From positions 11,227,059 to 11,291,058 of the forward strand of contig OZ025253.1 of the NCBI GenBank assembly GCA_964019135.1: a DNA stretch of 64,000 nt, read 5' to 3'. Shown here piece by piece: positions 1 through 37,566 of the stretch. The first letter of the stretch is position 1. Each line of letters starts with the position of its first letter. This DNA is from Arenicola marina (Eukaryota; Annelida; Polychaeta; Arenicolidae). The translations under genes were made by a program, and so were the position numbers. The notes under the pieces are model-generated. The model made no database searches. It was given only the letters and a program-made list of their open reading frames with translations, and was not told the origin of the DNA.

Positions 1-519
1 GATCTATGTACTTGACACATTCTGCTGCCGTATTTGAAGAAAACAAATCGATTGTCGCTACTTTGCGCCAGTGTGTGATTTGCATCTGGGCGTGATGTCA
101 CATATGATATAAACATGTCGCATACGACGGTTTGTCATCAGCGAGGGGTCTGTCCGACCTCCAAGCGCGTGTCTACTCGTCATCTGATTAGCGGAATATG
201 CGTGTGACGTCGTCAGATGATTGGCAGCTTGGATCGGTCTATAGTAAAACCTCCCTGCTCGACCACCTCCCTAAGCCAATCGATTATTTCCAGTCCCGGC
301 GGTCGGCCTATACCGTAGTATTGCAACAGTATTCTATAACCCGATCACTGAAAGTCGATCGGTCATTTTCGTCCCACGCTCCATTTCCCCAAGTCGATCG
401 GTTGTCGGCTGGTGGTCCACACACCAAGACGGGGGCGGAAGTATTAGTGTCTCCGGCTGACTGCGATAGAACACACACACTCGGGCAATAACGCATGTGG
501 ACATTGTGAACTAGTTAGC

Positions 520-694
520 CAGGGAAGGATCTAGAGGGGGGGGGGGATAAAGGGGTTGCACCCCCCCCCTCCCCCCTTGGGAACTTGGACTTACACTGTA
601 AAAGTCGGGTTCTCCGAGCACCCCCAACCCTGGTCTCAAGTTTTCACAGAGCAACCCCCCCGCCCCCCTTTGCACATTCCTAGATCCGCCCCTG
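520..694. mobile_element. Probable short non-autonomous DNA transposon (MITE, hAT-like ends)
   Basis: The left end reads CAGGGAAGGATCTAG. The right end, on the opposite strand, reads CAGGGGCGGATCTAG, so 13 of 15 terminal bases are inverted repeats. Both ends run into G-rich or C-rich stretches and the element is about 175 bp, far too short to encode a transposase. CAGGGGCGGATC-type ends are common on hAT-family non-autonomous elements (family knowledge). I could not find a clean 8-bp target duplication: the left flank ends TTAGC and the right flank begins ATAGC. The family call is therefore tentative. Confidence 0.45.
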
Positions 695-1353
695 ATAGCT
701 ATCTTGGGATGTATGATACATGTACGCGTGTTGTTGGCGATTGTTAGAGTATACATTGTAACTTTGATAATCATAATCATACTCAATACCTTTATAACAC
801 AATCGGGCGATACCATCTGTGAACGGCGTGAGCTTTGGTAATCTTGACCACAAGACTTCGTCTTGTTATAACACACATTTAAGATATAAGTAGAGGCTAT
901 ATATGGTAGAGGTGTTGGTCTTATGAATCGTTATCTCACTGAGCGTCATGGCAGCAACACTGAACATGCGAAGGAGCTTCCACTTTCAGCACGAAGGAAC
1001 GCTAGGGCAGGAGCAATCAACAGCTTGCTGATGTCTTGGGCATCGAAAAATCTACATATCTGAACATACTCAAGCGTAAAGCTGGTTACATTATGTATAT
1101 TGTAACCGAATTGCCAAGTTAGACGGCGGATTGCATTGTGTAGCCAAAGAAACATCGGATCTGTTAACATGTATATATTCACCTGTCGTGTATCGTGAGA
1201 CTTCCTCATTTGGATCTCTTGTAACAATGTTGTAACAGCTATAGTGGGGGTCCGATTCCTGATGGCTACCTAAGCGACTACTCGGATCACCAGAAAGATA
1301 CCGGGATGTGGTTGTGAAACCGTAGCCACCCACTGGTCGCCACACATTCGGAT

Positions 1354-1360
1354 TATATTA
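1354..1360 (+). promoter_or_regulatory. Weak TATA-like candidate
   Basis: TATATTA lies 164-170 bp upstream of the ATG at 1524. A start about 30 bp downstream would give a 5' UTR of roughly 140 nt. No initiator or other core element is evident, so this is only a candidate. Another TATAAG at 885-890 lies too far upstream unless there is an unseen 5' UTR intron. Confidence 0.15.
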
Positions 1361-1523
1361 CGCCCCAAGTAACTTCCCGGTGGCACAGTCGCCACTTTAA
1401 AATCGGCCCCGTTTCCCTTCGCAAGCGTCACAACCAAGAGAGGACGAGATCCCTGAAGGTCGGACATCGGGCTCACGAGTGTATCAAAGGGTCTTGGGAA
1501 GCATTTCCACCTCGGCATTGATC

Positions 1524-1611
1524 ATGAAGACCGGGTTCGTTCTCCTGCTCGCAGCCATTGCAGCCTTGCAGAGCGTCGCGTGTGCTGAAACCGATGTCTA
1601 TGAAAGAGAAG
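1524..1611 (+). CDS. Exon 1: start codon and signal peptide
   Basis: This exon encodes M1 to E29 plus the first base of codon 30. The start is the ATG at 1524, because it is followed directly by a basic residue, a ten-residue hydrophobic core and an A-C-A cleavage motif, which is a textbook signal peptide. The donor at 1612 is G|GTAAGT, a perfect consensus. The mature N-terminus would be ETDVYERE. Confidence 0.8.
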
Positions 1612-4600
1612 GTAAGTTTGTTATATATGCTCCCTGGTAGCAGTTTACTGAAGGACCGAACGCTCGCAAGTTGAAGGCGAAGAGTGGCGTGGTGAGATGG
1701 GATGTGACATGTATGGCGCAGTTTCTCGTTTATCGTTTCTCTACTCTGATCCAGAAGAACCCCCGTGATAAAATTTATATATTTAGACTTGTATTAAAAT
1801 ACATTAACAAAACAGGTAAATTAAGGTGAAATTGAGTAAATTAAGATAAATTAGGTAAACAGAGGTACAATTAAGGTACAACTAAGGTAAATTAGGTAAA
1901 TTAAGGTAAACTAAGGTAAAATCCTATACAATTTTATAAATTAAGGTAAAATTAGGTAACTTCAGATGCGTTGCTGCTCAGATAATTATCGTGACGCTTA
2001 ATGTTTAACTGAGGAAAGTATAACCTAAACTATACCTTTTCACCATAGTGAGCAATGGCGGCCGTTACTTACCTTCACGCCGCGCCGTGGCGGCCGTTAC
2101 TTACCTTCACGCCGCGCCGTGGCGGCCGTTACTTACCTTCACGCCGCGCCGTGGCGGCCGTTACTTACCTTCACGCCGCGCCGTGGCGGCCGTTACTTAC
2201 CTTCACGCCGCGCCGTGGCGGCCGTTACTTACCTTCACGCCGCGCTGTGGCGGCCGTTACTTACCTTCACGCCGCGCCGTGGCGGCCGTTACTTACCTTC
2301 ACGCCGCGCCGTGACTCACTGCTGGTATTTCTTTCCGGCCGCGTGGCATGTTCCAAAGGTGTAAAATGACGAGTTGTGTCGCATGGCTTGGGTTCACCGC
2401 CTCCTTACATTGTATAGAAGACCGGTTTACGGATTATTGTTCATGGGTGGATGGTTGGGAGGGGTGACAATCCCTATGGCTGGGATGACGACAGGGTTGA
2501 CACATGAGCTTTCTGAGACGGGGCCGAGAGGCGGTGAGGGCGGAGCGCAGTGGGAGGGAGGCCGAGAGGCGGTGAGGGCGGAGCGCAGTGGGAGGGAGGC
2601 CGAGAGGCGGTGAGGGCGGAGCGCAGTGGGAGGGAGGCCGAGAGGCGGTGAGGGCGGAGCGCAGTGGGAGGGAGGCCGAGAGGCGGTGAGGGCGGAGCGC
2701 AGTGGGAGGGAGGCCGAGAGGCGGTGAGGGCGGAGCGCAGTGGGAGGGAGGCCGAGAGGCGGTGAGGGCGGAGCGCAGTGGGAGGGAGGCCGAGAGGCGG
2801 TGAGGGCGGAGCGCAGTGGGAGGGAGGCCGAGAGGCGGTGAGGGCGGAGCGCAGTGGGAGGGAGGCCGAGAGGCGGTGAGGGCGGTGCGCAGTGGGAGGG
2901 AGGCCGAGAGGCGGTGAGAGCGGAGCGCAGTGGGAGGGAGGCCGAGAGGCGGTGAGGGCGGAGCGCAGTGGGAGGGAGGCCGAGAGGCGGTGAGGGCGGA
3001 GCGCAGTGGGAGGGAGGCCGAGAGGCGGTGAGGGCGGAGCGCAGTGGGAGGGAGGCCGAGAGGCGGTGAGGGCGGAGCGCAGTGGGAGGGAGGCCGAGAG
3101 GCGGTGAGGGCGGAGCGCAGTGGGAGGGAGGCCGAGAGGCGGTGAGGGCGGTGCGCAGTGGGAGGGAGGCCGAGAGGCGGTGAGGGCGGAGCGCAGTGGG
3201 AGGGAGGCCGAGAGGCGGTGAGGGCGGAGCGCAGTGGGAGGGAGGCCGAGAGGCGGTGAGGGCGGAGCGCAGTGGGAGGGAGGCCGAGAGGCGGTGAGGG
3301 CGGAGCGCAGTGGGAGGGAGGCCGAGAGGCGGTGAGGGCGGTGCGCAGTGGGAGGGAGGCCGAGAGGCGGTGAGGGCGGAGCGCAGTGGGAGGGAGGAAA
3401 TCCCTATGGCTGGGATGACGAGAGGGTTGACACATGAGCTTTCTGAGACGGGGCCGAGAGGCGGTGAGGGCGGAGCGCAGTGGGAGGGAGGCCGAGAGGC
3501 GGTGAGGGCGGTGCGCAGTGGGAGGGAGGCCGAGAGGCGGTGAGGGCGGAGCGCAGTGGGAGGGAGGCCGAGAGGCGGTGAGGGCGGAGCGCAGTGGGAG
3601 GGAGGCCGAGAGGCGGTGAGGGCGGTGCGCAGTGGGAGGGAGGCCGAGAGGCGGTGAGGGCGGTGCGCAGTGGGAGAGAGGAAATCCCTATGGCTGGGAT
3701 GACGAGAGGGTTGACACATGAGCTTTCTGAGACGGGGCCGAGAGGCGGTGAGGGCGGAGCGCAGTGGGAGGGAGGCCGAGAGGCGGTGAGGGCGGAGCGC
3801 AGTGGGAGGGAGGAAACCCCTATGGCTGGGATGACGAGAGGGTTGACACATGAGCTTTCTGAGACGGGGCCGAGAGGCGGTGAGGGCGGAGCGCAGTGGG
3901 AGGGAGGCCGAGAGGCGGTGAGGGCGGAGCGCAGTGGGAGGGAGGAAATCCCTATGGCTGGGATGACGAGAGGGTTGACACATGAGCTTTCTGAGACGGG
4001 GCCGAGAGGCGGTGAGGGCGGTGCGCAGTGGGAGGGAGGCCGAGAGGCGGTGAGGGCGGAGCGCAGTGGGAGGGAGGCCGAGAGGCGGTGAGGGCGGAGC
4101 GCAGTGGGAGGGAGGCCGAGAGGCGGTGAGGGCGGTGCGCAGTGGGAGGGAGGCCGAGAGGCGGTGAGGGCGGAGCGCAGTGGAAGGGAGGAAATCCCTA
4201 TGGCTGGGATGACGAGAGGGTTGACACATGAGCTTTCTGAGACGGGGCCGAGAGGCGGTGAGGGCGGAGCGCAGTGGGAGGGAGGCCGAGAGGCGGTGAG
4301 GGCGGAGCGCAGTGGGAGGGAGGCCGAGAGGCGGTGAGGGCGGAGCGCAGTGGGAGGGAGGCCGAGAGGCGGTGAGGGCGGAGCGCAGTGGGAGGGAGGC
4401 CGAGAGGCAGTGAGGGCGGAGCGCAGTGGGAGGGAGGCCGAGAGGCGGTGAGGGCGGAGCGCAGTGGGAGGGAGGCCGAGAGGCGGTGAGGGCGGAGCGC
4501 AGTGGGAGGGAGGCCGAGAGGCGGTGAGGGCGGAGCGCAGTGGGAGGGAGGAAATCCCTATGGCTGGGATGACGAGAGGGTTGACACATGAGCTTTCTGA

Positions 4601-7600
4601 GACGGGGCCGAGAGGCGGTGAGGGCGGAGCGCAGTGGGAGGGAGGCCGAGAGGCGGTGAGGGCGGAGCGCAGTGGGAGGGAGGCCGACAGGCGGTGAGGG
4701 CGGAGCGCAGTGGGAGGGAGGCCGAGAGGCGGTGAGGGCGGAGCGCAGTGGGAGGGAGGCCGAGAGGCGGTGAGGGCGGAGCGCATTGGGAGGGAGGCCG
4801 AGAGGCGGTGAGGGCGGAACGCAGTGGGAGGGAGGCCGAGAGGCGGTGAGGGCGGAGCGCAGTGGGAGGGAGGCCGAGAGGCGGTGAGGGCGGAGCGCAG
4901 TGGGAGGGAGGCCGAGAGGCGGTGAGGGCGGAGCGCAGTGGGAAGGAGGCCGAGAGGCGGTGAGGGCGGAGCGCAGTGGGAGGGAGGCCGAGAGGCGGTG
5001 AGGGCGGAGCGCAGTGGGAGGGAGGCCGAGAGGCGGTGAGGGCGGTGCGCAGTGGGAGGGAGGCCGAGAGGCGGTGAGGGCGGTGCGCAGTGGGAGGGAG
5101 GCCGAGAGGCGGTGAGGGCGGTGCGCAGTGGGAGGGAGGCCGAGAGGCGGTGAGGGCGGTGCGCAGTGGGAGGGAGGCCGAGAGGCGGTGAGGGCGGTGC
5201 GCAGTGGGAGGGAGGCCGAGAGGCGGTGAGGGCGGAGCGCAGTGGGAGGGAGGCCGAGAGGCGGTGAGGGCGGAGCGCAGTGGGAGGGAGGCCGAGAGGC
5301 GGTGAGGGCGGAGCGCAGTGGGAGGGAGGCCGAGAGGCGGTGAGGGCGGAGCGCAGTGGGAGGGAGGAAATCCCTATGGCTGGGATGACGAGAGGGTTGA
5401 CACATGAGCTTTCTGAGACGGGGCCGAGAGGCGGTGAGGGCGGAGCGCAGTGGGAGGGAGGCCGAGAGGCGGTGAGGGCGGAGCGCAGTGGGAGGGAGGA
5501 AATCCCTATGGCTGGGATGACGAGAGGGTTGACACATGAGCTTTCTGAGACGGGGCCGAGAGGCGGTGAGGGCGGAGCGCAGTGGGAGGGAGGCCGAGAG
5601 GCGGTGAGGGCGGAGCGCAGTGGGAGGGAGGCCGAGAGGCGGTGAGGGCGGAGCGCAGTGGGAGGGAGGCCGAGAGGCGGTGAGGGCGGAGCGCAGTGGG
5701 AGGGAGGCCGAGAGGCGGTGAGGGCGGAGCGCAGTGGGAGGGAGGCCGAGAGGCGGTGAGGGCGGAGCGCAGTGGGAGGGAGGCCGAGAGGCGGTGAGGG
5801 CGGTGCGCAGTGGGAGGGAGGCCGAGAGGCGGTGAGGGCGGAGCGCAGTGGGAGGGAGGAAATCCCTAGGGCTGGGATGACGAGAGGGTTGACACATGAG
5901 CTTTCTGAGACGGGGCCGAGAGGCGGTGAGGGCGGAGCGCAGTGGGAGGGAGGCCGAGAGGCGGTGAGGGCGGAGCGCAGTGGGAGGGAGGCCGAGAGGC
6001 GGTGAGGGCGGAGCGCAGTGGGAGGAAGGCCGAGAGGCGGTGAGGGCGGAGCGCAGTGGGAGGGAGGCCGAGAGGCGGTGAGGGCGGAGCGCAGTGGGAG
6101 GGAGGCCGAGAGGCGGTGAGGGCGGAGCGCAGTGGGAGGGAGGCCGAGAGGCGGTGAGGGCGGTGCGCAGTGGGAGGGAGGCCGAGAGGCGGTGAGGGCG
6201 GTGCGCAGTGGGAGGGAGGCCGAGAGGCGGTGAGGGCGGAGCGCAGTGGGAGGGAGGCCGAGAGGCGGTGAGGGCGGTGCGCAGTGGGAGGGAGGCCGAG
6301 AGGCGGTGAGGGCGGAGCGCAGTGGGAGGGAGGAAATCCCTATGGCTGGGATGACGAGAGGGTTGACACATGAGCTTTCTGAGACGGGGCCGAGAGGCGG
6401 TGAGGGCGGAGCGCAGTGGGAGGGAGGCCGAGAGGCGGTGAGGGCGGAGCGCAGTGGGAGGGAGGCCGAGAGGCGGTGAGGGCGGACCGCAGTGGGAGGG
6501 AGGCCGAGAGGCGGTGAGGGCGGAGCGCAGTGGGAGGGAGGCCGAGAGGCGGTGAGGGCGGAGCGCAGTGGGAGGGAGGCCGAGAGGCGGTGAGGGCGGA
6601 GCGCAGTGGGAGGGAGGCCGAGAGGCGGTGAGGGCGGTGCGCAGTGGGAGGGAGGCCGAGAGGCGCTGAGGGCGGAGCGCAGTGGGAGGGAGGAAATCCC
6701 TAGGGCTGGGATGACGAGAGGGTTGACACATGAGCTTTCTGAGACGGGGCCGAGAGGCGGTGAGGGCGGAGCGCAGTGGGAGGGAGGCCGAGAGGCGGTG
6801 AGGGCGGAGCGCAGTGGGAGGGAGGCCGAGAGGCGGTGAGGGCGGAGCGCAGTGGGAGGGAGGCCGAGAGGCGGTGAGGGCGGAGCGCAGTGGGAGGGAG
6901 GAAATCCCTATGGCTGGGATGACGAGAGGGTTGACACATGAGCTTTCTGAGACGGGGCCGAGAGGCGGTGAGGGCGGAGCGCAGTGGGAGGGAGGCCGAG
7001 AGGCGGTGAGGGCGGAGCGCAGTGGGAGGGAGGCCGAGAGGCGGTGAGGGCGGAGCGCAGTGGGAGGGAGGCCGAGAGGCGGTGAGGGCGGTGCGCAGTG
7101 GGAGGGAGGCCGAGAGGCGGTGAGGGCGGTGCGCAGTGGGAGGGAGGCCGAGAGGCGGTGAGGGCGGAGCGCAGTGGGAGGGAGGCCGAGAGGCGGTGAG
7201 GGCGGTGCGCAGTGGGAGGGAGGCCGAGAGGCGGTGAGGGCGGAGCGCAGTGGGAGGGAGGCCGAGAGGCGGTGAGGGCGGAGCGCAGTGGGAGGGAGGC
7301 CGAGAGGCGGTGAGGGCGGAGCGCAGTGGGAGGGAGGCCGAGAGGCGGTGAGGGCGGTGCGCAGTGGGAGGGAGGCCGAGAGCCGGTGAGGGCGGTGCGC
7401 AGTGGGAGGGATGCCGAGAGGCGGTGAGGGCGGAGCGCAGTGGGAGGGAGGCCGAGAGGCGGTGAGGGCGGAGCGCAGTGGGAGGGAGGCCGAGAGGCGG
7501 TGAGGGCGGAGCGCAGTGGGAGGGAGGAAATCCCTATGGCTGGGATGACGAGAGGGTTGACACATGAGCTTTCTGAGACGGGGCCGAGAGGCGGTGAGGG

Positions 7601-10600
7601 CGGAGCGCAGTGGGAGGGAGGCCGAGAGGCGGTGAGGGCGGAGCGCAGTGGGAGGGAGGCCGAGAGGCGGTGAGGGCGGAGCGCAGTGGGAGGGAGGCCG
7701 AGAGGCGGTGAGGGCGGAGCGCAGTGGGAGGGAGGAAATCCCTATGGCTGGGATGACGAGAGGGTTGACACATGAGCTTTCTGAGACGGGGCCGAGAGGC
7801 GGTGAGGGCGGAGCGCAGTGGGAGGGAGGCCGAGAGGCGGTGAGGGCGGAGCGCAGTGGGAGGGAGGCCGAGAGGCGGTGAGGGCGGAGCGCAGTGGGAG
7901 GGAGGCCGAGAGGCGGTGAGGGCGGAGCGCAGTGGGAGGGAGGCCGAGAGGCGGTGAGGGCGGAGCGCAGTGGGAGGGAGGCCGAGAGGCGGTGAGGGCG
8001 GTGCGCAGTGTGAGGGAGGCCGAGAGGCGGTGAGGGCGGTGCGCAGTGGGAGGGAGGCCGAGAGGCGGTGAGGGCGGAGCGCAGTGGGAGGGAGGCCGAG
8101 AGGCGGTGAGGGCGGTGCGCAGTGGGAGGGAGGCCGAGAGGCGGTGAGGGCGGTGCGCAGTGGGAGGGAGGCCGAGAGGCGGTGAGGGCGGAGCGCAGTG
8201 GGAGGGAGGCCGAGAGGCGGTGAGGGCGGAGCGCAGTGGGAGGGAGGCCGAGAGGCGGTGAGGGCGGAGCGCAGTGGGAGGGAGGCCGAGAGGCGGTGAG
8301 GGCGGAGCGCAGTGGGAGGGAGGAAATCCCTATGGCTGGGATGACGAGAGGGTTGACACATGAGCTTTGTGAGACGGGGCCGAGAGGCGGTGAGGGCGGA
8401 GCGCAGTGGGAGGGAGGCCGAGAGGCGGTGAGGGCGGAGCGCAGTGGGAGGGAGGCCGAGAGGCGGTGAGGGCGGAGCGCAGTGGGAGGGAGGCCGAGAG
8501 GCGGTGAGGGCGGAGCGCAGTGGGAGGGAGGCCGAGAGGCGGTGAGGGCGGAGCGCAGTGGGAGGGAGGCCGAGAGGCGGTGAGGGCGGAGCGCAGTGGG
8601 AGGGAGGAAATCCCTATGGCTGGGATGACGAGAGGTTGACACATGAGCTTCCTGAGACGGGGCCGAGAGGCGGTGAGGGCGGAGCGCAGTGGGAGGGAGG
8701 CCGAGAGGCGGTGAGGGCGGAGCGCAGTGGGAGGGAGGCCGAGAGGCGGTGAGGGCGGAGCGCAGTGGGAGGGAGGCCGAGAGGCGGTGAGGGCGGAGCG
8801 CAGTGGGAGGGAGGCCGAGAGGCGGTGAGGGCGGAGCGCAGTGGGAGGGAGGCCGAGAGGCGGTGAGGGCGGAGCGCAGTGGGAGGGAGGCCGAGAGGCG
8901 GTGAGGGCGGAGCGCAGTGGGAGGGAGGCCGAGAGGCGGTGAGGGCGGAGCGCAGTGGGAGGGAGGCCGAGAGGCGGTGAGGGCGGAGCGCAGTGGGAGG
9001 GAGGCCGAGAGGCGGTGAGGGCGGTGCGCAGTGGGAGGGAGGAAATCCCTATGGCTGGGATGACGAGAGGGTTGACACATGAGCTTTCTGAGACGGGGCC
9101 GAGAGGCGGTGAGGGCGGAGCGCAGTGGGAGGGAGGCCGAGAGGCGGTGAGGGCGGAGCGCAGTGGGAGGGAGGCCGAGAGGCGGTGAGGGCGGAGCGCA
9201 GTGGGAGGGAGGCCGAGAGGCGGTGAGGGCGGAGCGCCGTGGGAGGGAGGCCGAGAGGCGGTGAGGGCGGTGCGCAGTGGGAGGGAGGCCGAGAGGCGGT
9301 GAGGGCGGAGCGCAGTGGGAGGGAGGCCGAGAGCCGGTGAGGGCGGAGCGCAGTGGGAGGGAGGCCGAGAGGCGGTGAGGGCGGAGCGCAGTGGGAGGGA
9401 GGCCGAGAGGCGGTGAGGGCGGTGCGCAGTGGGAGGGAGGCCGAGAGGCGGTGAGGGCGGTGCGCAGTGGGAGGGATGCCGAGAGGCGGTGAGGGCGGAG
9501 CGCAGTGGGAGGGAGGCCGAGAGGCGGTGAGGGCGGAGCGCAGTGGGAGGGAGGCCGAGAGGCGGTGAGGGCGGAGCGCAGTGGGAGGGAGGAAATCCCT
9601 ATGGCTGGGATGACGAGAGGGTTGACACATGAGCTTTCTGAGACGGGGCCGAGAGGCGGTGAGGGCGGAGCGCAGTGGGAGGGAGGCCGAGAGGCGGTGA
9701 GGGCGGAGCGCAGTGGGAGGGAGGCCGAGAGGCGGTGAGGGCGGAGCGCAGTGGGAGGGAGGCCGAGAGGCGGTGAGGGCGGAGCGCAGTGGGAGGGAGG
9801 AAATCCCTATGGCTGGGATGACGAGAGGGTTGACACATGAGCTTTCTGAGACGGGGCCGAGAGGCGGTGAGGGCGGAGCGCAGTGGGAGGGAGGCCGAGA
9901 GGCGGTGAGGGCGGAGCGCAGTAGGAGGGAGGCCGAGAGGCGGTGAGGGCGGAGCGCAGTGGGAGGGACGCCGAGAGGCGGTGAGGGCGGAGCGCAGTGG
10001 GAGGAAGGCCGAGAGGCGGTGAGGGCGGTGCGCAGTGTGAGGGAGGCCGAGAGGCGGTGAGGGCGGTGCGCAGTGGGAGGGAGGCCGAGAGGCGGTGAGG
10101 GCGGAGCGCAGTGGGAGGGAGGCCGAGAGGCGGTGAGGGCGGTGCGCAGTGGGAGGGAGGCCGAGAGGCGGTGAGGGCGGTGCGCAGTGGGAGGGAGGCC
10201 GAGAGGCGGTGAGGGCGGAGCGCAGTGGGAGGGAGGCCGAGAGGCGGTGAGGGCGGAGCGCAGTGGGAGGGAGGCCGAGAGGCGGTGAGGGCGGAGCGCA
10301 GTGGGAGGGAGGCCGAGAGGCGGTGAGGGCGGAGCGCAGTGGGAGGGAGGAAATCCCTATGGCTGGGATGACGAGAGGGTTGACACATGAGCTTTCTGAG
10401 ACGGGGCCGAGAGGCGGTGAGGGCGGAGCGCAGTGGGAGGGAGGCCGAGAGGCGGTGAGGGCGGAGCGCAGTGGGAGGGAGGCCGAGAGGCGGTGAGGGC
10501 GGAGCGCAGTGGGAGGGAGGCCGAGAGGCGGTGAGGGCGGAGCGCAGTGGGAGGGAGGCCGAGAGGCGGTGAGGGCGGAGCGCAGTGGGAGGGAGGAAAT

Positions 10601-25600: not shown

Positions 25601-28600
25601 GCGTGATATCCGTGTCCCCCCACCCTCTTGGGGCGTGATACCCGTGTCCCCCCACCCTCTTGGGGCGTGATACCCGTGTCCCCCCACCCTCTTGGGGCGT
25701 GACACCCGTGTCCCCCCACCCTCTTGGGGCGTGATACCCGTGTCCCCCCACCCTCTTGTGGCGTGATACCCGTGTCCCCCCACCCTCTTGGGGCGTGATA
25801 CCCGTGTCCCCCCACCCTCTTGGGGCGTGATACCCGTGTCCCCCCACCCTCTTGGGGCGTGATACCCGTGTCCCCCCACCCTCTTGGGGCGTGATACCCG
25901 TGTCCCCCCACCCTCTTGGGGCGTGATACCCGTGTCCCCCCACCCTCTTGGGGCGTGACACCCGTGTCCCCCCACCCTCTTGGGGCGTGATACCCGTGTC
26001 CCCCCACCCTCTTGGGGCGTGATACCCGTGTCCCCCCACCCTCTTGGGGCGTGATACCCGTGTCCCCCCACCCTCTTGGGGCGTGATACCCGTGTCCCCC
26101 CACCCTCTTGGGGCGTGATACCCGTGTCCCCCCACCCTCTTGGGGCGTGATACCCGTGTCCCCCCACCCTCTTGGGGCGTGATACCCGTGTCCCCCCACC
26201 CTCTTGGGGCGTGATACCAGTGTCCCCCCACCCTCTTGGGGCGTGATACCCGTGTCCCCCCACCCTCTTGGGGCGTGATACCCGTGTCCCCCCACCCTCT
26301 TGGGGCGTGATACCCGTGTCCCCCCACCCTCTTGGAGCGTGATACCCGTGTCCCCCCACCCTCTTGTGGCGTGATACCCGTGTCCCCCCACCCTCTTGGG
26401 GCGTGATACCCGTGTCCCCCCACCCTCTTGGGGCGTGATATCCGTGTCCCCCCACCCTCTTGGGGCGTGATACCCGTGTCCCCCCACCCTCTTGGGGCGT
26501 GATACCCGTGTCCCCCCACCCTCTTGGGGCGTGATACCCGTGTCCCCCCACCCTCTTGGGGCGTGATACCCGTGTCCCCCCACCCTCTTGGGGCGTGATA
26601 CCCGTGTCCCCCCACCCTCTTGGGGCGTGATACCCGTGTCCCCCCACCCTCTTGTGGCGTGATACCCGTGTCCCCCCACCCTCTTGTGGCGTGATACCCG
26701 TGTCCCCCCACCCTCTTGGGGCGTGATACCCGTGTCCCCCCACCCTCTTGGGGCGTGATACCCGTGTCCCCCCACCCTCTTGGGGCGTGATACCCGTGTC
26801 CCCCCACCCTCTTGGGGCGTGATACCCGTGTCCCCCCACCCTCTTGGGGCGTGATACCCGTGTTCCCCCACCCTCTTGGGGCGTGATATCCGTGTCCCCC
26901 CACCCTCTTGGGGCGTGATACCCGTGTCCCCCCACCCTCTTGAGGCGTGATATCCGTGTCCCCCCACCCTCTTGGGGCGTGATATCCGTGTCCCCCCACC
27001 CTCTTGGGGCGTGATACCCGTGTCCCCCCACCCTCTTGGGGCGTGATACCCGTGTCCCCCCACCCTCTTGGGGCGTGATACCCGTGTCCCCCCACCCTCT
27101 TGGGGCGTGATATCCGTGTCCCCCCACCCTCTTGAGGCGTGATACCCGTGTCCCCCCACCCTCTTGGGGCGTGATACCCGTGTCCCCCCACCCTCTTGGG
27201 GCGTGATACCCGTGTCCCCCCACCCTCTTGGGGCGTGATACCCGTGTCCCCCCACCCTCTTGGGGCGTGATACCCGTGTCCCCCCACCCTCTTGGGGCGT
27301 GATACCCGTGTCCCCCCACCCTCTTGGGGCGTGATATCCGTGTCCCCCCACCCTCTTGGGGCGTGATATCCGTGTCCCCCCACCCTCTTGGGGCGTGATA
27401 CCCGTGTCCCCCCACCCTCTTGGGGCGTGGTACCCGTGTCCCCCCACCCTCTTGGGGCGTGATACCCGTGTCCCCCCACCCTCTTGGGGCGTGATATCCG
27501 TGTCCCCCCACCCTCTTGAGGCGTGATACCCGTGTCCCCCCACCCTCTTGGGGCGTGATACCCGTGTCCCCCCACCCTCTTGGGGCGTGATACCCGTGTC
27601 CCCCCACCCTCTTGGGGCGTGATACCCGTGTCCCCCCACCCTCTTGGGGCGTGATACCCGTGTCCCCCCACCCTCTTGGGGCGTGATACCCGTGTCCCCC
27701 CACCCTCTTGGGGCGTGATACCCGTGTCCCCCCACCCTCTTGGGGCGTGATACCCGTGTCCCCCCACCCTCTTGGAGCGTGATACCCGTGTCCCCCCACC
27801 CTCTTGGGGCGTGACACCCGTGTCCCCCCACCCTCTTGGGGCGTGATAGCCGTGTCCCCCCACCCTCTTGGGGCGTGATACCCGTGTCCCCCCACCCTCT
27901 TGGGGCGTGATATCCGTGTTCCCCCACCCTCTTGGGGCGTGATATCCGTGTCCCCCCACCCTCTTGGGGCGTGATACCCGTGTCCCCCCACCCACTTGGG
28001 GCGTGATACCCGTGTCCCCCCACCCTCTTGGGGCGTGATACCCGTGTCCCCCCACCCTCTTGGGGCGTGATATCCGTGTCCCCCCACCCTCTTGGGGCGT
28101 GATACCCGTGTCCCCCCACCCTCTTGGGGCGTGATACCCGTGTCCCCCCACCCTCTTGGGGCGTGATACCCGTGTCCCCCCACCCTCTTGGGGCGTGATA
28201 CCCGTGTCCCCCCACCCTCTTGGGGCGTGATATCCGTGTCCCCCCACCCTCTTGGGGCGTGATACCCGTGTCCCCCCACCCTCTTGGGGCGTGATACCCG
28301 TGTCCCCCCACCCTCTAGGGGCGTGATACCCGTGTCCCCCCACCCTCTTGGGGCGTGATACCCGTGTTCCCCCACCCTCTTGGGGCGTGATACCCGTGTC
28401 CCCCCACCCTCTTGTGGCGTGGTATCCGTGTCCCCCCACCCTCTTGAGGCGTGATACCCGTGTCCCCCCACCCTCTTGGGGCGTGATATCCGTGTCCCCC
28501 CACCCTCTTGAGGCGTGATACCCGTGTCCCCCCACCCTCTTGGGGCGTGATACCCGTGTCCCCCCACCCTCTTGGGGCGTGATACCCGTGTCCCCCCACC

Positions 28601-31600
28601 CTCTTGGGGCGTGATACCCGTGTCCCCCCACCCTCTTGTGGCGTGATACCCGTGTCCCCCCACCCTCTTGGGGCGTGATACCCGTGTCCCCCCACCCTCT
28701 TGGGGCGTGATACCCGTGTCCCCCCACCCTCTTGTGGCGTGATACCCGTGTCCCCCCACCCTCTTGGGGCGTGATACCCGTGTCCCCCCACCCTCTTGGG
28801 GCGTGATACCCGTGTCCCCCCACCCTCTTGGGGCGTGATATCCGTGTCCCCCCACCCTCTTGGGGCGTGATACCCGTGTCCCCCACCCTCTTGGGGCGTG
28901 ATATCCGTGTTCCCCCACCCTCTTGGGGCGTGATATCCGTGTCCCCCCACCCTCTTGGGGCGTGATACCCGTGTCCCCCCACCCTCTTGTGGCGTGATAC
29001 CCGTGTCCCCCCACCCTCTTGGGGCGTGATACCCGTGTCCCCCCACCCTCTTGGGGCGTGATATCCGTGTCCCCCCACCCTCTTGGGGCGTGATACCCGT
29101 GTCCCCCCACCCTCTTGGGGCGTGATACCCGTGTCCCCCCACCCTCTTGGGGCGTGATACCCGTGTCCCCCCACCCTCTTGGGGCGTGATACCCGTGTCC
29201 CCCCACCCTCTTGGGGCGTGATATCCGTGTCCCCCCACCCTCTTGGGGCGTGATACCCGTGTCCCCCCACCCTCTTGGGGCGTGATACCCGTGTCCCCCC
29301 ACCCTCTTGGGGCGTGATACCCGTGTCCCCCCACCCTCTTGGGGCGTGATATCCGTGTCCCCCCACCCTCTTGGGGCGTGATACCCGTGTCCCCCCACCC
29401 TCTTGGGGCGTGATATCCGTGTCCCCCCACCCTCTTGGGGCGTGATACCCGTGTCCCCCCACCCTCTTGGGGCGTGATACCCGTGTCCCCCCACCCTCTT
29501 GGGGCGTGATACCCGTGTCCCCCACCCTCTTGGGGCGTGATATCCGTGTCCCCCCACCCTCTTGGGGCGTGATACCCGTGTCCCCCCACCCTCTTGGGGC
29601 GTGATACCCGTGTCCCCCCACCCTCTTGGAGCGTGATACCCGTGTCCCCCCACCCTCTTGGGGCGTGATACCCGTGTCCCCCCACCCTCTTGGGGCGTGA
29701 TAGCCGTGTCCCCCCACCCTCTTGGGGCGTGATATCCGTGTTCCCCCCACCCTCTTGGGGCGTGATACCCGTGTCCCCCCACCCTCTTGGGGCGTGATAG
29801 CCGTGTCCCCCCACCCTCTTGGGGCGTGATATCCGTGTTCCCCCACCCTCTTGGGGCGTGATACCCGTGTCCCCCCACCCTCTTGGGGCGTGATATCCGT
29901 GTCCCCCCACCCTCTTGAGGCGTGATACCCGTGTCCCCCCACCCTCTTGGGGCGTGATACCCGTGTCCCCCCACCCTCTTGGGGCGTGATACCCGTGTCC
30001 CCCCACCCTCTTGGGGCGTGATACCCGTGTCCCCCCACCCTCTTGGGGCGTGATACCCGTGTCCCCCCACCCTCTTGGGGCGTGATATCCGTGTCCCCCC
30101 ACCCTCTTGGGGCGTGATACCCGTGTCCCCCCACCCTCTTGGGGCGTGATACCCGTGTTCCCCCCACCCTCTTGGGGCGTGATATCCCGTGTCCCCCCAC
30201 CCTCTTGGGGCGTGATACCCGTGTCCCCCCACCCTCTTGAGGCGTGATACCCGTGTCCCCCCACCCTCTTGGGGCGTGATAGCCGTGTCCCCCCACCCTC
30301 TTGGGGCGTGATATCCGTGTTCCCCCACCCTCTTGTGGCGTGATACCCGTGTCCCCCCACCCTCTTGGGGCGTGATAGCCGTGTCCCCCCACCCTCTTGG
30401 GGCGTGATATCCGTGTTCCCCCACCCTCTTGGGGCGTGATACCCGTGTCCCCCCACCCTCTTGGGGCGTGATATCCGTGTCCCCCCACCCTCTTGAGGCG
30501 TGATACCCGTGTCCCCCCACCCTCTTGGGGCGTGATACCCGTGTCCCCCCACCCTCTTGGGGCGTGATACCCGTGTCCCCCCACCCTCTTGGGGCGTGAT
30601 ACCCGTGTCCCCCCACCCTCTTGGGGCGTGATACCCGTGTCCCCCCACCCTCTTGGGGCGTGATATCCCGTGTCCCCCCACCCTCTTGGGGCGTGATACC
30701 CGTGTCCCCCCACCCTCTTGGGGCGTGATACCCGTGTCCCCCCACCCTCTTGGGGCGTGATATCCCGTGTCCCCCCACCCTCTTGGGGCGTGATACCCGT
30801 GTCCCCCCACCCTCTTGGGGCGTGATACCCGTGTCCCCCACCCTCTTGGGGCGTGATACCCGTGTCCCCCCACCCTCTTGGGGCGTGATACCCGTGTCCC
30901 CCCACCCTCTTGGGGCGTGATATCCCGTGTCCCCCCACCCTCTTGGGGCGTGATACCCGTGTCCCCCCACCCTCTTGGGGCGTGATATCCGTGTCCCCCC
31001 CACCCTCTTGGGGCGTGATACCCGTGTCCCCCCACCCTCCTTGGTGCGTGATATCCGTGTCCCCCCCACCCTCTTGGGGGCGTGATATCCGTGTCCCCCC
31101 CCCTCTTGGGGCGGATACCCGTGTCCCCCCACCCTCTTGGGCGTGATATCCGTGTCCCCCCACCCTCTTGGGCGTGATATCCGTGTCCCCCCACCCTCTT
31201 GTGGCGTGATACCCCGTGGTCCCCCCCACCCTCTTGGGGCGTGATATCCGTGTCCCTCTTGTGGCGTGATACCCGTGTCCCCCACCCTCTTGGGGCGTGA
31301 TATCCGTGTCCCCCCACCCTCTTGAGGCGTGATACCCGTGTCCCCCCACCCTCTTGGGGCGTGATATCCGTGTCCCCCCACCCTCTTGGGGCGTGATATC
31401 CGTGTCCCCCCACCCTCTTGTGGCGTTCTTGTGGCGTGATACCCGTGTCCCCCACCCTCTTGGGGCGTGATATCCGTGTCCCCCCACCCTCTTGAGGCGT
31501 GATACCCGTGTCCCCCCACCCTCTTGGGGCGTGATATCCGTGTCCCCCCACCCTCTTGGGGCGTGATACCCGTGTCCCCCCACCCTCTTGGGGCGTGATA

Positions 31601-34600
31601 CCCGTGTCCCCCCACCCTCTTGGGGCGTGATACCCGTGTCCCCCCACCCTCTTGAGGCGTGATACCCGTGTCCCCCCACCCTCTTGGGGCGTGATACCCG
31701 TGTCCCCCCACCCTCTTGGGGCGTGATACCCGTGTCCCCCCACCCTCTTGAGGCGTGATACCCGTGTTCCCCCACCCTCTTGGGGCGTGATACCCGTGTC
31801 CCCCCACCCTCTTGGGGCGTGATACCCGTGTCCCCCCACCCTCTTGGGGCGTGATACCCGTGTCCCCCCACCCTCTTGTGGCGTGATAACCCGTGTTCCC
31901 CCACCCTCTTGAGGCGTGATACCCGTGTCCCCCACCCACTTGGGGCGTGATACCCGTGTTCCCCCACCCTCTTGGGGCGTGATACCCGTGTCCCCCCACT
32001 CTCTTGGGGCGTGATATCCGTGTCCCCCCACCCTCTTGGGGCGTGATACCCGTGTCCCCCCACCCTCTTGGGGCGTGATACCCGTGTCCCCCCACCCTCT
32101 AGGGGCGTGATACCCGTGTCCCCCCACCCTCTTGGGGCGTGATACCCGTGTTCCCCCACCCTCTTGGGGCGTGATACCCGTGTCCCCCCACCCTCTTGTG
32201 GCGTGGTATCCGTGTCCCCCCACCCTCTTGAGGCGTGATACCCGTGTCCCCCCACCCTCTTGGGGCGTGATATCCGTGTCCCCCCACCCTCTTGAGGCGT
32301 GATACCCGTGTCCCCCCACCCTCTTGGGGCGTGATACCCGTGTCCCCCCACCCTCTTGGGGCGTGATACCCGTGTCCCCCCACCCTCTTGGGGCGTGATA
32401 CCCGTGTCCCCCCACCCTCTTGGGGCGTGATATCCGTGTCCCCCCACCCTCTTGAGGCGTGATACCCGTGTCCCCCCACCCTCTTGGGGCGTGATATCCG
32501 TGTCCCCCCACCCTCTTGGGCGTGATACCCGTGTCCCCCCACCCTCTTGGGGCGTGATACCCGTGTCCCCCCACCCTCTTGGGCGTGATACCCGTGTCCC
32601 CCCACCCTCTTGGGGCGTGGTACCCGTGTCCCCCCACCCTCTTGGGGCGTGATACCCGTGTCCCCCCACCCTCTTGGGGCGTGATACCCGTGTCCCCCCA
32701 CCCTCTTGGGGCGTGATACCCGTGTCCCCCCACCCTCTTGGGGCGTGATATCCGTGTCCCCCCACCCTCTTGGGGCGTGATAGCCGTGTCCCCCCACCCT
32801 CTTGGGGCGTGATACCCGTGTCCCCCCACCCTCTTAGGGCGTGATACCCGTGTCCCCCCACCCTCTTGTGGCGTGATACCCGTGTCCCCCCACCCTCTTG
32901 GGGCGTGATATCCGTGTCCCCCCACCCTCTTGGGGCGTGATACCCGTGTCCCCCCACCCTCTTGGGGCGTGATACCCGTGTCCCCCCACCCTCTTAGGGC
33001 GTGATACCCGTGTCCCCCCACCCTCTTGTGGCGTGATACCCGTGTCCCCCCACCCTCTTGGGGCGTGATACCCGTGTCCCCCCACCCTCTTGGGGCGTGA
33101 TATCCGTGTCCCCCCACCCTCTTGGGGCGTGATACCCGTGTCCCCCCACCCTCTTGGGGCGTGATACCCGTGTCCCCCCACCCTCTTGGGGCGTGATACC
33201 CGTGTCCCCCCACCCTCTTGGGGCGTGATACCCGTGTCCCCCCACCCTCTTGGGGCGTGATACCCGTGTCTCCCCACCCTCTTGGGGCGTGATACCCGTG
33301 TCCCCCCACCCTCTTGGGGCGTGATACCCGTGTCCCCCCACCCTCTTGGGGCGTGATAGCCGTGTCCACCCACCCTCTTGGGGCGTGATACCCGTGTCCC
33401 CCCACCCTCTTGGGGCTTGATACCCGTGTCCCCCCACCCTCTTGGGGCGTGATACCCGTGTCCCCCCACCCTCTTGGGGCGTGATACCCGTGTCCCCCCA
33501 CCCTCTTGGGGCGTGATATCCGTGTCCCCCCACCCTCTTGGGGCGTGATACCCGTGTCCCCCCACCCTCTTGGGGCGTGATACCCGTGTCCCCCCACCCT
33601 CTTGGGGCGTGATACCCGTGTCCCCCCACCCTCTTGGGGCGTGATATCCGTGTCCCCCCACCCTCTTGGGGCGTGATACCCGTGTCCCCCCACCCTCTTG
33701 GGGCGTGATATCCGTGTCCCCCCACCCTCTTGGGGCGGGATACCCGTGTTCCCCCACCCTCTTGGGGCGTGATACCCGTGTCCCCCCACCCTCTTGGGGC
33801 GTGATACCCGTGTCCCCCCACCCTCTTGGGGCGTGATACCCGTGTCCCCCCACCCTCTTGGGGCGTGATACCCGTGTCCCCCCACCCTCTTGGGGCGTGA
33901 TATCCGTGTCCCCCCACCCTCTTGGGGCGTGATACCCGTGTCCCCCCACCCTCTTGGGGCGGGATACCCGTGTTCCCCCACCCTCTTGGGGCGTGATACC
34001 CGTGTCCCCCCACCCTCTTGGGGCGTGATACCCGTGTCCCCCCACCCTCTTGGGGCGGGATACCCGTGTTCCCCCCACCCTCTTGGGGCGTGATACCCGT
34101 GTCCCCCCACCCTCTTGGGGCGTGATACCCGTGTTCCCCCACCCTCTTGTGGCGTGATACCCGTGTCCCCCCACCCTCTTGGGGCGTGATACCCGTGTCC
34201 CCCCACCCTCTTGGGGCGTGATACCCGTGTCCCCCCACCCTCTTGGGGCGTGATACCCGTGTCCCCCCACCCTCTTAGGGCGTGATACCCGTGTCCCCCC
34301 ACCCTCTTGGGGCGTGATACCCGTGTCCCCCCACCCTCTTGGGGCGTGATACCCGTGTCCCCCCACTCTCTTGGGGCGTGATACCCGTGTCCCCCCACCC
34401 TCTTGTGGCGTGATACCCGTGTCCCCCCACCCTCTTGGGGCGTGATACCCGTGTCCCCCAACCCTCTTGGGGCGTGATACCCGTGTCCCCCCACCCTCTT
34501 GGGGCGTGATACCCGTGTCCCCCCACCCTCTTGGGGCGTGATACCCGTGTCCCCCCACCCTCTTGGGGCGTGATACCCGTGTCCCCCCACCCTCTTGGGG

Positions 34601-36478
34601 CGTGATACCCGTGTCCCCCCACCCTCTTGGGGCGTGATACCCGTGTCCTCCCACCCTCTTGGGGCGTGATACCCGTGTCCCCCCACCCTCTTGGGGCGTG
34701 ATACCCGTGTCCCCCCACCCTCTTGGGGCGTGATACCCGTGTCCCCCCACCCTCTTGTGGCGTGATACCCGTGTCCCCCCACCCTCTTGGGGCGTGATAT
34801 CCGTGTCCCCCCACCCTCTTGGGGCGTGATACCCGTGTCCCCCCACCCTCTTGGGGCGTGATACCCGTGTCCCCCCACCCTCTTGGGGCGTGATACCCGT
34901 GTCCCCCCACCCTCTTGGGGCGTGATACCCGTGTCCCCCCACCCTCTTGGGGCGTGATACCCGTGTCCCCCCACCCTCTTGGGGCGTGATACCCGTGTCC
35001 CCCAACCCTCTTGGGGCGTGATACCCGTGTCCCCCCACCCTCTTGGGGCGTGACACCCGTGTCCCCCCACCCTCTTGGGGCGTGATACCCGTGTCCCCCA
35101 ACCCTCTTGGGGCGTGATACCCGTGTCCCCCCACCCTCTTGGGGCGTGACACCCGTGTCCCCCCACCCTCTTGGGGCGTGATACCCGTGTCCCCCCACCC
35201 TCTTGGGGCGTGATACCCGTGTCCCCCCACCCTCTTGGGGCGTGATACCCGTGTCCCCCCACCCTCTTGGGGCGTGATACCCGTGTCCCCCAACCCTCTT
35301 GGGGCGTGATACCCGTGTCCCCCCACCCTCTTGGGGCGTGACACCCGTGTCCCCCCACCCTCTTGGGGCGTGATACCCGTGTCCCCCCACCCTCTTGGGG
35401 CGTGATACCCGTGTCCCCCAACCCTCTTGGGGCGTGATACCCGTGTCCCCCCACCCTCTTGGGGCGTGATACCCGTGTCCCCCAACCCTCTTGGGGCGTG
35501 ATACCCGTGTCCCCCCACCCTCTTGGGGCGTGATACCCGTGTCCCCCCACCCTCTTGGGGCGTGATACCCGTGTCCCCCCACCCTCTTGGGACGTGATAC
35601 CCGTGTCCCCCCACCCTCTTGGGGCGTGATACCCGTGTCCCCCAACCCTCTTGGGGCGTGATACCCGTGTCCCCCCACCCTCTTGGGGCGTGATACCCGT
35701 GTCCCCCAACCCTCTTGGGGCGTGATACCCGTGTCCCCCCACCCTCTTGGGGCGTGATACCCGTGTCCCCCCACCCTCTTGGGGCGTGATACCCGTGTCC
35801 CCCCACCCTCTTGTGGCGTGATACCCGTGCCCCCCCCCCCACCCTCTTGCGGCGTGGTACCCGTGCCCCCCACCCACCCTCTTGTGGCGTGATACCCGTC
35901 CCCCCCCCCCCCATCCAGCGCCCACTCCCCACCCTCTTGTGGCGTGATACCCGTGTCCCCCGACACCCCCCCCAACCTTTCGTGCAATGTTACCCGTGAC
36001 CCCCCCCGCCCACCCCCACCCTCTTGTCGTATGATAACCGTGCGCCCCCCCCCCCTCTCACCGCTCGCCCACAAATTTGCTCCAACCACATTCTACCCCG
36101 CCTTTTTCTCTCAAACTCGTGAACTCCGCTCTGGCGACAAATTGCGCTGTACTCAAATTTAATTTTCATTTTGCCCCTCACCCAACAAACAGCCCGCAGA
36201 GCAAATACAACCGGGACTGTGTGCGCTATGGGTACAAGAGAGGCTCCACCGTGAACTCCAGGGGCCACAGCCGCTGCTCTGCCGCCAAGGTCCGCGGGTC
36301 CACGTGGTTCAATGTCAAGATCAAGGTCAAGGCTGGACGGGCTCAAGTGTTTGTCGATGACACGAAGCTTGTGACCGTGACGCCTCACTACTCCGTCAGG
36401 AGTCAGGCCGGCGTCATGGTGTGGAACGGACACGCCAACACCGTTCGGTACAGGAATGCAACGATTACCTCCCTGTGA
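1524..36478 (+). CDS. Secreted ConA-like (LamG-like) domain protein, three exons
   Basis: The coding sequence joins 1524-1611, 23734-24028 and 36193-36478 and encodes 222 residues. Phases agree at both junctions: exon 1 ends in phase 1 at G|GTAAGT, and exon 2 ends in phase 2 at AA|GTGGGT and completes an Asn codon with the C after AACAG. Residues 1-21 form a signal peptide (hydrophobic VLLLAAIAAL core, AXA-type cut before E22). Residues 31-39 are a Pro/Thr-rich linker. From residue 43 onward the protein looks like a beta-sandwich, with NFDFVYF at 121-127, W166, VFVDD at 180-184, TPHY at 191-194 and GVMVWNGHANTVRYRN at 201-216. As I recall, this succession matches secreted concanavalin A-like/LamG-type domains of marine invertebrates. 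Five mature cysteines (43, 52, 76, 137, 156) could form disulfides, and N216-A-T is a glycosylation sequon. The ligand is unknown. The gene model is firm; the family call is moderate. Confidence 0.8.
1811..1960 (+). repeat. Degenerate AT-rich short tandem repeat
   Basis: About 150 bp of imperfect repeats built on AATTAAGGTAA-like words (AGGTAAATTAAGGTAAA, TAAGGTACAAT and similar), with a period of roughly 9-11 bp. Many copies contain GGTAA, so the stretch is dense in cryptic splice-donor-like words just downstream of the true donor. It is old or loosely kept, because no two adjacent copies are identical over a long span. Confidence 0.6.
2058..2313 (+). repeat. Eight-copy 32-bp minisatellite, CpG-rich
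   Basis: Exactly 8 x 32 = 256 bp, starting GCGGCCGTTACTTACC and ending GCCGCGCCGTG. Copies are nearly identical: the sixth has GCGCTGTG in place of GCGCCGTG. Each unit has six CpG dinucleotides. Each unit also carries ACTTACCTTC, the exact reverse complement of GAAGGTAAGT at the exon-1/intron-1 junction (1608-1617). The plus strand has no stop codon in any frame, which explains small open frames here. I do not regard these as genes. Confidence 0.95.
3093..13095 (+). repeat. First copy of a 10,003-bp higher-order duplication
   Basis: Spacer positions and variant units recur at an offset of exactly 10,003 bp. Examples are spacers at 3397 and 13400, at 3681 and 13684, and at 8607 and 18610; both of the last pair share a 1-bp loss (GAGAGGTTG). 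Comparing unit types backwards, the match holds to 3093/13096. There copy 1 continues with plain units and copy 2 meets a spacer, so the junction lies there. I noticed only isolated differences, such as A at 9157 versus T at 19160 and C at 9334 versus G at 19337. Confidence 0.85.
13096..22570 (+). repeat. Second copy of the duplication, with a 682-bp internal loss
   Basis: From 13096 to about 20745 this copy follows the first at +10,003. From about 20,870 (unit with GCGTAG, partner at 11549) to about 22,570 it follows at +9,321. The 682-bp difference equals fifteen 38-bp units plus two 56-bp spacers. The spacers of copy 1 at about 10842 and 11240 are the two missing ones. The right end is approximate because plain units carry no markers. 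A further local copy of the GCGTAG-marked block appears at about 22,600-22,970. Confidence 0.75.
23260..23733. other. Unique tail of intron 1
   Basis: This is AT-rich single-copy sequence between the array and exon 2. I see no gene, RNA or mobile element in it, only a short imperfect direct repeat at about 23317-23357 (GGGGTGACACCCCAG and GGGGTGACACACCAG). It ends in the exon-2 acceptor. Confidence 0.6.
23734..24028 (+). CDS. Exon 2: linker and N-terminal half of the ConA-like domain
   Basis: The exon completes codon 30 (E), encodes residues 31-127 and gives two bases of codon 128. It carries the Pro/Thr-rich linker, cysteines 43, 52 and 76, and the beta-strand-like stretches YIYSVDLYNE (90-99), LGVTFNV (110-116) and NFDFVYF (121-127). 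The frame is open throughout and third positions are strongly C/G, unlike the flanking AT-rich intron DNA. The donor is AA|GTGGGT. Confidence 0.8.
24238..24312 (+). repeat. Three imperfect 25-bp AT-rich repeats
   Basis: TAATGATA words followed by CAGTAAGTT recur at 24238, 24263 and 24288, a 25-bp period with a few mismatches per copy. Decayed GTAAGTTATAA-like words continue to about 24330. Confidence 0.6.
24498..24626 (+). repeat. Three identical 43-bp C-rich units
   Basis: Units start at 24498, 24541 and 24584 with CACCTCACTCCCGCCCCCGC and are identical across all 43 bp. A fourth start (CACCTC, 24627) breaks off at once. It sits just upstream of the 32-bp array but shares no unit with it beyond being C-rich. 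Lack of divergence means recent expansion or conversion. Confidence 0.9.
24672..36044 (+). repeat. 11.3 kb C-rich 32-bp minisatellite
   Basis: About 350 copies of a 32-bp unit containing GGGGCGTGATACCCGTGT followed by CCCCCCACCCTCTT. Variants include GATATCCG, GATAGCCG, CTTGTGG, CTTGAGG and GTGTTCC. Most units keep exactly 32 bp. The first units (from 24672) and last units (from about 35,820) are diverged in length and sequence, and carry TATGATA where the core has GCGTGATA. The minus strand is G-rich and stop-free in all three frames, giving frames of 2,300 to 2,800 codons with no domain features beyond the repeat. I reject these as genes. The array fills intron 2. Confidence 0.95.
30990..31440 (+). 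repeat. Disrupted zone inside the intron-2 array
   Basis: In this stretch of about 450 bp, unit lengths depart from 32 bp many times: GGGGGCG for GGGGCG, GGCGGATACC lacking GT, CTTGGGCG with a lost G, ACCCCGTGGTCCC with insertions, and GTCCCTCTTG with about nine bases missing. Flanking units are far more regular, apart from several 33-bp GATATCCCG units from about 30,180 onward. It may be a true recombination seam or a patch of assembly error. Confidence 0.7.
36193..36478 (+). CDS. Exon 3: C-terminal half of the ConA-like domain and stop
   Basis: The exon completes codon 128 (AA+C, Asn) and encodes P129 to L222, ending at the TGA at 36476-36478. It holds cysteines 137 and 156, W166, the VFVDD and TPHY motifs and the final GVMVWNGHANTVRYRN stretch. 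The alternative acceptor after CCCGCAG (exon from 36200) is rejected because it breaks the phase set by exon 2. An in-frame ATG upstream at 36077 lies in intron sequence. Confidence 0.8.
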
Positions 36479-36551: not shown

Positions 36552-36617
36552 ATTAAAAGATTGCTTGCGTAATTTTCCTCTCTTTCCCTTTTCTCAAGTT
36601 AACGCTTCCGCAATAAA
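36552..36617 (+). promoter_or_regulatory. Polyadenylation signals
   Basis: ATTAAA at 36552-36557 and canonical AATAAA at 36612-36617 lie 74 and 134 bp after the stop codon. Either would give a short 3' UTR of about 100-160 nt. The AATAAA, in the context CGCAATAAAAAC, is the stronger candidate. Confidence 0.65.
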
Positions 36618-37324: not shown

Positions 37325-37384
37325 ATGGGATAAACGTCATCCAGACCACGAGCGCTCAAGTCTATTAATCACGATCCGCCACGA

Positions 37385-37564
37385 TATGTCATAAAGCAAC
37401 CGTACATGTTACTCCCCACTATTAATATACTAATAATATTGGCTTAAGGGGTGTTTCACGGGAATTATATCACATCATATCATATCATATCATATAATAT
37501 ATCATAGTAATATAATTATTACATTAATAGTGGGGAGTAACATGTACGGTTGCTTTATGACATA
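37385..37564. mobile_element. MITE with perfect terminal inverted repeats and TA flanks (Tc1/mariner-like)
   Basis: Left arm 37383-37426 and right arm 37523-37566 are perfect reverse complements over 44 bp. They include TGTCATAAAGCAACCG and ACATGTTACTCCCC. Placing the ends at TGTCATAAAGC leaves a TA on each side (37385-37386 and 37563-37564), as expected for Tc1/mariner-type insertion. The 176-bp body has no coding capacity. Its centre is AT-rich with CATAT repeats (about 37470-37505). Perfect arms suggest a young copy or a hairpin kept by conversion. Confidence 0.6.
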
Positions 37565-37566
37565 TC

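Follow-up and report, generated by a model that had tools for sequence, protein, structure and literature searches.

Unrelated minisatellite arrays fill both introns of a 222-codon gene in the annelid Arenicola marina

The stretch of DNA analyzed here, called the window below, comprises 64,000 nucleotides of the Arenicola marina genome (positions 11227059-11291058 of contig OZ025253.1, labeled C6; further contigs of the 867-Mb, 762-contig assembly are labeled C1 and so on). On its forward strand, to which all features below refer unless stated otherwise, lies a small gene that spans 35 kb and consists mostly of intronic tandem array. Three exons (1524-1611, 23734-24028 and 36193-36478, the last with the stop codon) join into 222 codons plus stop, giving a predicted protein of 222 amino acids; this join is the longest of the 12 frame-preserving GT-AG combinations within the boundary ranges enumerated. 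Both introns are of the GT-AG type, in phase 1 for intron 1 (1612-23733, 22,122 bp) and in phase 2 for intron 2 (24029-36192, 12,164 bp). Tandem Repeats Finder (TRF) places array 1, built of a 38-bp unit and spacers, at 2522-23251 (20,730 bp), and array 2, with 348 copies of a 32-bp unit at 96% matches, at 24750-35911 (11,162 bp). The original prediction of a gene of this length, with frame and splice phases intact and both introns filled by tandem arrays (put at 20.8 and 11.3 kb), is thus borne out. Without the main arrays the introns would retain 1.39 and 1.00 kb; the smaller residues that had been predicted, about 1.1 and 0.7 kb, are reached when the small neighboring TRF arrays are removed as well.

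The exon boundaries can be compared with paralogs of the gene elsewhere in the genome. Exons 2 and 3 are both matched by tblastn: exon 2 of the paralogs has an identical 3' end, stopping at the same residues (FVYF or FVFF, FEFVYF, FDFIYF), and exon 3 resumes there. At the intron-1 acceptor, the closest paralog (loci L003/L004, C6:32.91 Mb) also shares TTTGACACAG with the window gene, and ahead of the intron-2 acceptor it shares CTCACCCAACA. This comparison supports the predicted intron 2 on both sides and the predicted intron 1 at its acceptor only. A tblastn search of 18 paralog loci failed to recover exon 1 (best E 0.11), and so did blastn of window positions 1-2600 against 5.7 kb of the closest paralog reaching from upstream into its exon 2. 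Its placement is therefore based on the reading frame, which opens with a start codon and an N-terminus that by eye resembles a signal peptide, and on the phase-1 donor GTAAGT. A candidate polyadenylation signal, the sequence motif AATAAA, follows the gene at 36612-36617. Structured RNA or tRNA as an explanation is ruled out by the lack of Rfam matches at gathering scores and of ARAGORN tRNA genes, both in the window and in the downstream loci L042/L043.

The origin of array 2 can be followed most closely. Its edges are degenerate (the right one continues at 35919-36055, up to 137 bp ahead of the intron end, as detected by TRF) and its center is homogeneous: central cores average 0.63 substitutions per 26 bases, which is far below the synonymous divergence (dS) of 0.35 at the split from the closest paralog. 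In that paralog, intron 2 measures about 0.8 kb. The window sequence flanking array 2 can be aligned with it on either side, and a single unit-like copy lies between the aligned flanks. When the consensus core and tested array-2 units, four distinct queries in all, are compared with this copy, 4-5 of 23 positions differ. The best places in 112 kb of genomic probes, both strands included, differ at 7-9 positions, and 200 shuffled versions of the paralog intron come no closer than 7-8. Other array-2 units listed show up to 6 mismatches to the copy, and the TRF consensus of the right edge shows 2, against 8 in the probes. The segment found at about 348 copies here thus occurs once in the closest paralog. 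Left of array 2, TRF reports a further small array with a C-rich 43-bp unit in 3.3 copies (24489-24632).

None of the other paralogs examined has such an expansion. In all 16 paralog loci with placed exons 2 and 3, the matches to these exons are 223-799 bp apart, and intron 2 lacks tandem repeats of 60 bp or more. The count derives from 20 loci, two of which (L001, L002) are the window gene itself, while L004 is the same gene as L003 and no exon 3 was found in L020. It covers the loci that were fetched, with further tblastn exon pairs standing outside it, and by gap length it amounts to about 7 groups (L006-L009 are near-identical, and L011, L012, L013, L015, L016, L017 and L019 have a gap of 385-386 bp). 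Given the single unexpanded unit between alignable flanks in the closest paralog, array 2 most likely grew in place from such a seed. Slippage or unequal exchange would be expected to leave degenerate edges and a homogeneous center of this kind.

Array 1 has a more complex build. Its 38-bp units are broken by 44 copies of a 53-base spacer (up to 8 edits), and a single near copy of this spacer lies directly left of the array, from 2469; seemingly the flank was therefore partly drawn into the amplified unit. The 7,751-bp block at 3092-10842 has a second copy 10,003 bp downstream that differs by 2 mismatches; either a large part of the array was duplicated recently, or the assembly is in error here. 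The latter leads to a possible, though unlikely, account of the locus as a whole: the arrays would be real, but the assembler would have inflated their lengths, most of all in array 1. In favor of this account are the block and an exact repeat of 6,065 bp in array 1, when the longest exact repeats are 422 bp in array 2 and 936 bp in the downstream array 3. However, arrays 2 and 3 consist of variant units without long exact repeats, long arrays are found throughout the sampled assembly, and array 1 would still measure about 10.7 kb with the 10,003 bp taken out.

Smaller repeats accompany array 1. TRF finds eight copies of a 32-bp unit at 2056-2313 (99% matches); on the minus strand, AAGGTAAGT in these near-identical units looks by eye like a consensus splice donor. 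An 18-bp repeat occurs twice at 23322-23358. Upstream of exon 2 in the closest paralog, presumably in its intron 1, different small arrays are present, and one of them, with a 27-bp unit, expands a sequence related to window positions 23322-23358. Between splice site and main array, 910 and 482 bp remain at the two ends of intron 1 and 721 and 281 bp at those of intron 2; small arrays and degenerate edges come as near as 137 bp. An amphioxus-type 'mirage', in which the repeat unit contains the exon-intron boundary, is ruled out by these distances. On the coding strand, array 1 holds no acceptor with a pyrimidine tract and 22.6 GTRAG motifs per kb, and array 2 holds six acceptors with a pyrimidine tract; with only two arrays such counts prove nothing.

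At up to 3 mismatches, the units are private to their arrays. Patterns of about 1.3-1.8 units were searched in the whole genome at this tolerance. All 406 matches of the array-1 pattern and all 310 of the array-2 pattern fall inside the window, and all 771 of the array-3 pattern fall inside the window or the next 10 kb (L042); no pattern has a match on the other strand. With units of 38 and 32 bp that are each confined in this way, the predicted lack of a shared unit, and with it separate origins of the two arrays, stands. Both arrays, lying between exons, can be classed as intronic minisatellites, putatively variable number tandem repeats (VNTRs), with units that are private at up to 3 mismatches. 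A classical satellite would be a unit family at many places or in large heterochromatic blocks, and at the same tolerance all three units occupy a single place.

Tandem arrays are not limited to the gene. Upstream lies an array of 2.9 kb. Downstream, array 3 (32-bp unit, TRF) runs from 38445 to the window end at 64000 and 3,629 bp past it, 29.2 kb in all, and beyond it follows an array with a 59-bp unit of at least 8.4 kb and at least 141 copies (window coordinates about 70640-79000+). Inside and outside the gene together, long arrays make up 86% of the surrounding 84 kb. The 59-bp unit matches, mostly at 84-93% identity, a short interspersed element (SINE)-like segment at 38097-38157 that looks tRNA-like by eye; ARAGORN finds no tRNA in the 59-bp array, and related DNA also occurs in one random genome probe (L050). 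Between gene and array 3, at 37383-37566, two exact 37-base inverted-repeat arms enclose an ATATC-rich stretch that resembles a small palindromic mobile element.

The coding sequence itself appears to have been maintained. The window protein gives 69 exon-level tblastn matches in the genome, 58 of which are on C6. The stretch C6:32.97-33.17 Mb holds four paralog copies, nearly identical and spaced at about 58 kb, that resemble a recent tandem segmental duplication. Against the closest paralog (66% amino-acid identity over 188 codons) the nonsynonymous divergence (dN) is 0.22 and its ratio to dS, omega, is 0.61 (bootstrap 0.39-0.94), and 98.9% of bootstraps give an omega below 1. When base changes alone were simulated under neutrality, the frame stayed free of stops in 2.3% of runs (P 0.023). 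These values indicate that the coding sequence was constrained over at least a large part of the period since the paralog split, which need not include the time after array growth. It is nonetheless conceivable that the gene is decaying or unexpressed and that its arrays grew without opposing selection, which we consider improbable. The protein evolves fast and belongs to a many-copy family in which some matches carry stops, but the frame, the splice sites and the candidate polyadenylation signal are intact, and the omega and stop-free values argue against decay over the period that they cover.

Over residues 156-219 the predicted protein scores 25.3 bits (E 1.8e-5) against PF06439, the 3-keto-disaccharide hydrolase family, below the curated cut-off of 26.8; four paralogs, with their exon pieces joined by X, reach 18.0-24.7 bits and likewise stay below it. 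It may be regarded as a distant relative of the PF06439 family, within an expanded gene family. A search for solved relatives in the PDB gave only three matches, with E values of 0.91 to 1.2.

To place the gene in its genomic context, array content was estimated from 36 random probes of 2 kb, in which arrays of at least 400 bp were counted as long. Forty places were drawn, four of them past the end of small contigs (C15, C16); the draw covered positions up to 38 Mb on C1-C18, with the distal parts of longer contigs and all later contigs outside it. Long arrays make up 30.6% of the random probes (95% confidence interval (CI) 17.7-44.3); 15 probes contain one and 7 are at least 90% filled. As one of these 15 has an 8-bp and another a 346-bp unit, a second estimate was restricted to units of 10-99 bp, yielding 26.5% (CI 14.2-40.2) with 13 of the 36 probes contributing. 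A set of 20 probes taken 45 kb to 1.5 Mb from the gene contains 24.5% long array. Random and nearby probes alike being rich in arrays, the tendency is genome-wide with local clustering. One further array, with a 44-bp unit from C11:36548336 onward, is matched 5,790 times in the genome, always on one strand, and the roughly 100 matches listed all lie on C11. It possibly extends over some 250 kb, so some arrays may reach hundreds of kilobases.

These figures leave unsupported the proposal, part of the original prediction, that expansion in both introns reflects a locus-level tendency. Such instability, with the gene's transcription, its chromatin or a break hotspot driving array growth, seems quite improbable to us. 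It could appeal to the two arrays in one gene and the 86% array content around it, to the arrays upstream of exon 2 in the closest paralog, and to the mostly short introns of the conserved genes sampled (none of 67 exceeds 10 kb, a point in favor of the proposal). Against this, nearly a third of the genome sample is long array, arrays flank the gene on both sides, and intron 2 is free of sizeable tandem repeats in the 16 paralog loci. Array formation is thus a matter of the region and the genome and takes no account of gene boundaries; the gene is a striking example of a widespread process and no special case.

Overall, we consider local minisatellite growth inside introns, in a genome rich in minisatellites, the best explanation, at a probability of roughly 0.77. 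Each array would have grown in place from a short stretch already present in the intron, through repeated tandem duplication by replication slippage and/or unequal exchange, and the same process would be at work at very many places in the genome. For array 1 a local seed is likewise presumed, and the direction of change was probably growth in the window gene rather than loss in the paralog. Growth would have been confined within the introns, leaving splice sites and coding frame unharmed, and the explanation requires no array function; the transcript is presumably made and spliced.

Several observations weigh against this explanation. No seed of array 1 was found in the sequence upstream of exon 2 in the closest paralog: the best place there has 14 mismatches of 38 for the 38-bp unit (minimum of 60 shuffles 16), 26 of 53 for the spacer (shuffles 25) and 14 of 32 for the 32-bp unit (shuffles 13). 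Strictly speaking, the paralog could also have lost a long array, and since unequal exchange can keep an old array uniform, the uniformity of the units does not strictly date the growth. A dispersed satellite or transposon as the source of the arrays was rejected on the grounds that the units occur at one place only, a result that holds up to 3 mismatches; diverged relatives were not searched for. The estimate of genome-wide array content is wide.

Intron sizes in conserved genes point the same way. Among 67 myosin and kinesin introns the median is 531 bp, 9 exceed 2 kb and none exceeds 10 kb, where an intron is the gap between profile-adjacent matches rather than an annotated intron. Several longer intervals, in which up to 41 profile positions are unmatched, exceed 10 kb by eye; of five probes inside three such myosin intervals, one is pure array and four are not. 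The introns of conserved genes being mostly short, two introns above 10 kb in one gene are unlike the average gene. A gene with both introns of this size is uncommon, though not demonstrably beyond chance in such a genome. The count used 66 of 77 myosin matches (nine repeated C4 exons, C4:2724781 and C8:20795985 being left out) and 122 of 133 kinesin matches (leaving out five on C390, C504 and C536 and six others on C1, C12, C13 and C18).

The kinesin-like frames on C390, C504 and C536 contain in-frame TAA/TAG and no TGA, presumably as in some ciliate codes, and these are possibly contaminant contigs. In the mitochondrial contig (15,942 bp) the COX1 frame has 13 TGA codons, which are stops in the standard code, and is open under the invertebrate code (table 5); the ND2, COX1 and COX2 frames, named by eye, are consecutive, which we take to be the annelid order. 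The genome also has four exon matches to the hemoglobin-linker domain PF16915, a domain that we assume to be restricted to annelids. Both observations are taken to indicate an annelid.

The Drosophila genes with gigantic introns are Y-linked. As in the window gene, tandem repeats account for most of their length; the satellite-containing introns described are megabase-sized (PMC6508621), whereas here locus-private minisatellites of 11-21 kb are involved, on a large scaffold. The human CACNA1C gene offers a closer parallel in an intronic VNTR (TRACT) with a 30-bp unit and a length of 3-30+ kb, attributed to growth of perfect repeat tracts (PMC13131567). Unit and size are similar, but in that working calcium-channel gene one array in one intron is described, whereas two unrelated arrays fill both introns of our 222-codon gene, as seen in one assembly. 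Earthworm metallothionein genes have minisatellites in intron 1 that differ between duplicates (PMC12783039); this too is a small annelid gene with intronic arrays of minisatellite length and differing duplicates, though only the first intron is described there and the repeats are conserved between two species, whereas the units here are private to one paralog. In the amphioxus Adh3 and globin genes, minisatellite-like repeats at introns seemingly leave regular splicing unhindered (PMC3087553); those units span the exon-intron boundary, unlike the main arrays here, which keep 281-910 bp from the splice sites. Intronic minisatellites of such size are thus already known, and what seems more unusual is that both introns of a tiny gene are filled, with a seed in a paralog and in an array-rich genome.

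It is highly improbable that the arrays are functional in the gene, for instance by slowing transcription or by enhancing it from within the intron. The case for it is one of precedent only: the Drosophila genes with gigantic introns are described as using a special expression program (PMC6508621), and in human CACNA1C, long repeat alleles go along with reduced expression in fibroblasts and testis (PMC13131567). Here, the short intron 2 of the 16 paralog loci examined has no arrays, and the units are found in this gene copy alone, so that conservation gives no hint of a function.

For comparison with other annelids, tandem repeats are given as 9.84% of the Amynthas aspergillum genome, with 2.65% minisatellites (PMC12130307), and as 13.24% by TRF in Sipunculus nudus (PMC10212961); the available text of a third annelid paper holds no separate tandem-repeat value (PMC12890243). 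Methods and thresholds differ between these percentages, and our own figure comes from 36 probes. In a partial survey of the open-licence literature we found no annelid genome with such a minisatellite fraction. Tentatively, and at somewhat less than an even chance, we propose that long minisatellites, many being locus-private and derived from single-copy seeds, make up a quarter to a third of the genome, a fraction above that of the two annelids compared. In this lineage, a genome-wide mutational process would then keep turning ordinary DNA, introns included, into arrays, and pairs of paralogs like the present one would catch the step from seed to array.

The gene shows how much locus-private repeats can lengthen introns without damage to the coding sequence. 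Together with the paralog that holds one unexpanded unit, it forms a before-and-after pair for the birth of a minisatellite; to our knowledge such pairs are seldom available. If the sampled 31% (27% for units of 10-99 bp) holds genome-wide, the array content would lie above both annelid values reported in the sources available to us. If true, this would make the genome of A. marina a good system for studying what starts and what limits minisatellite growth.

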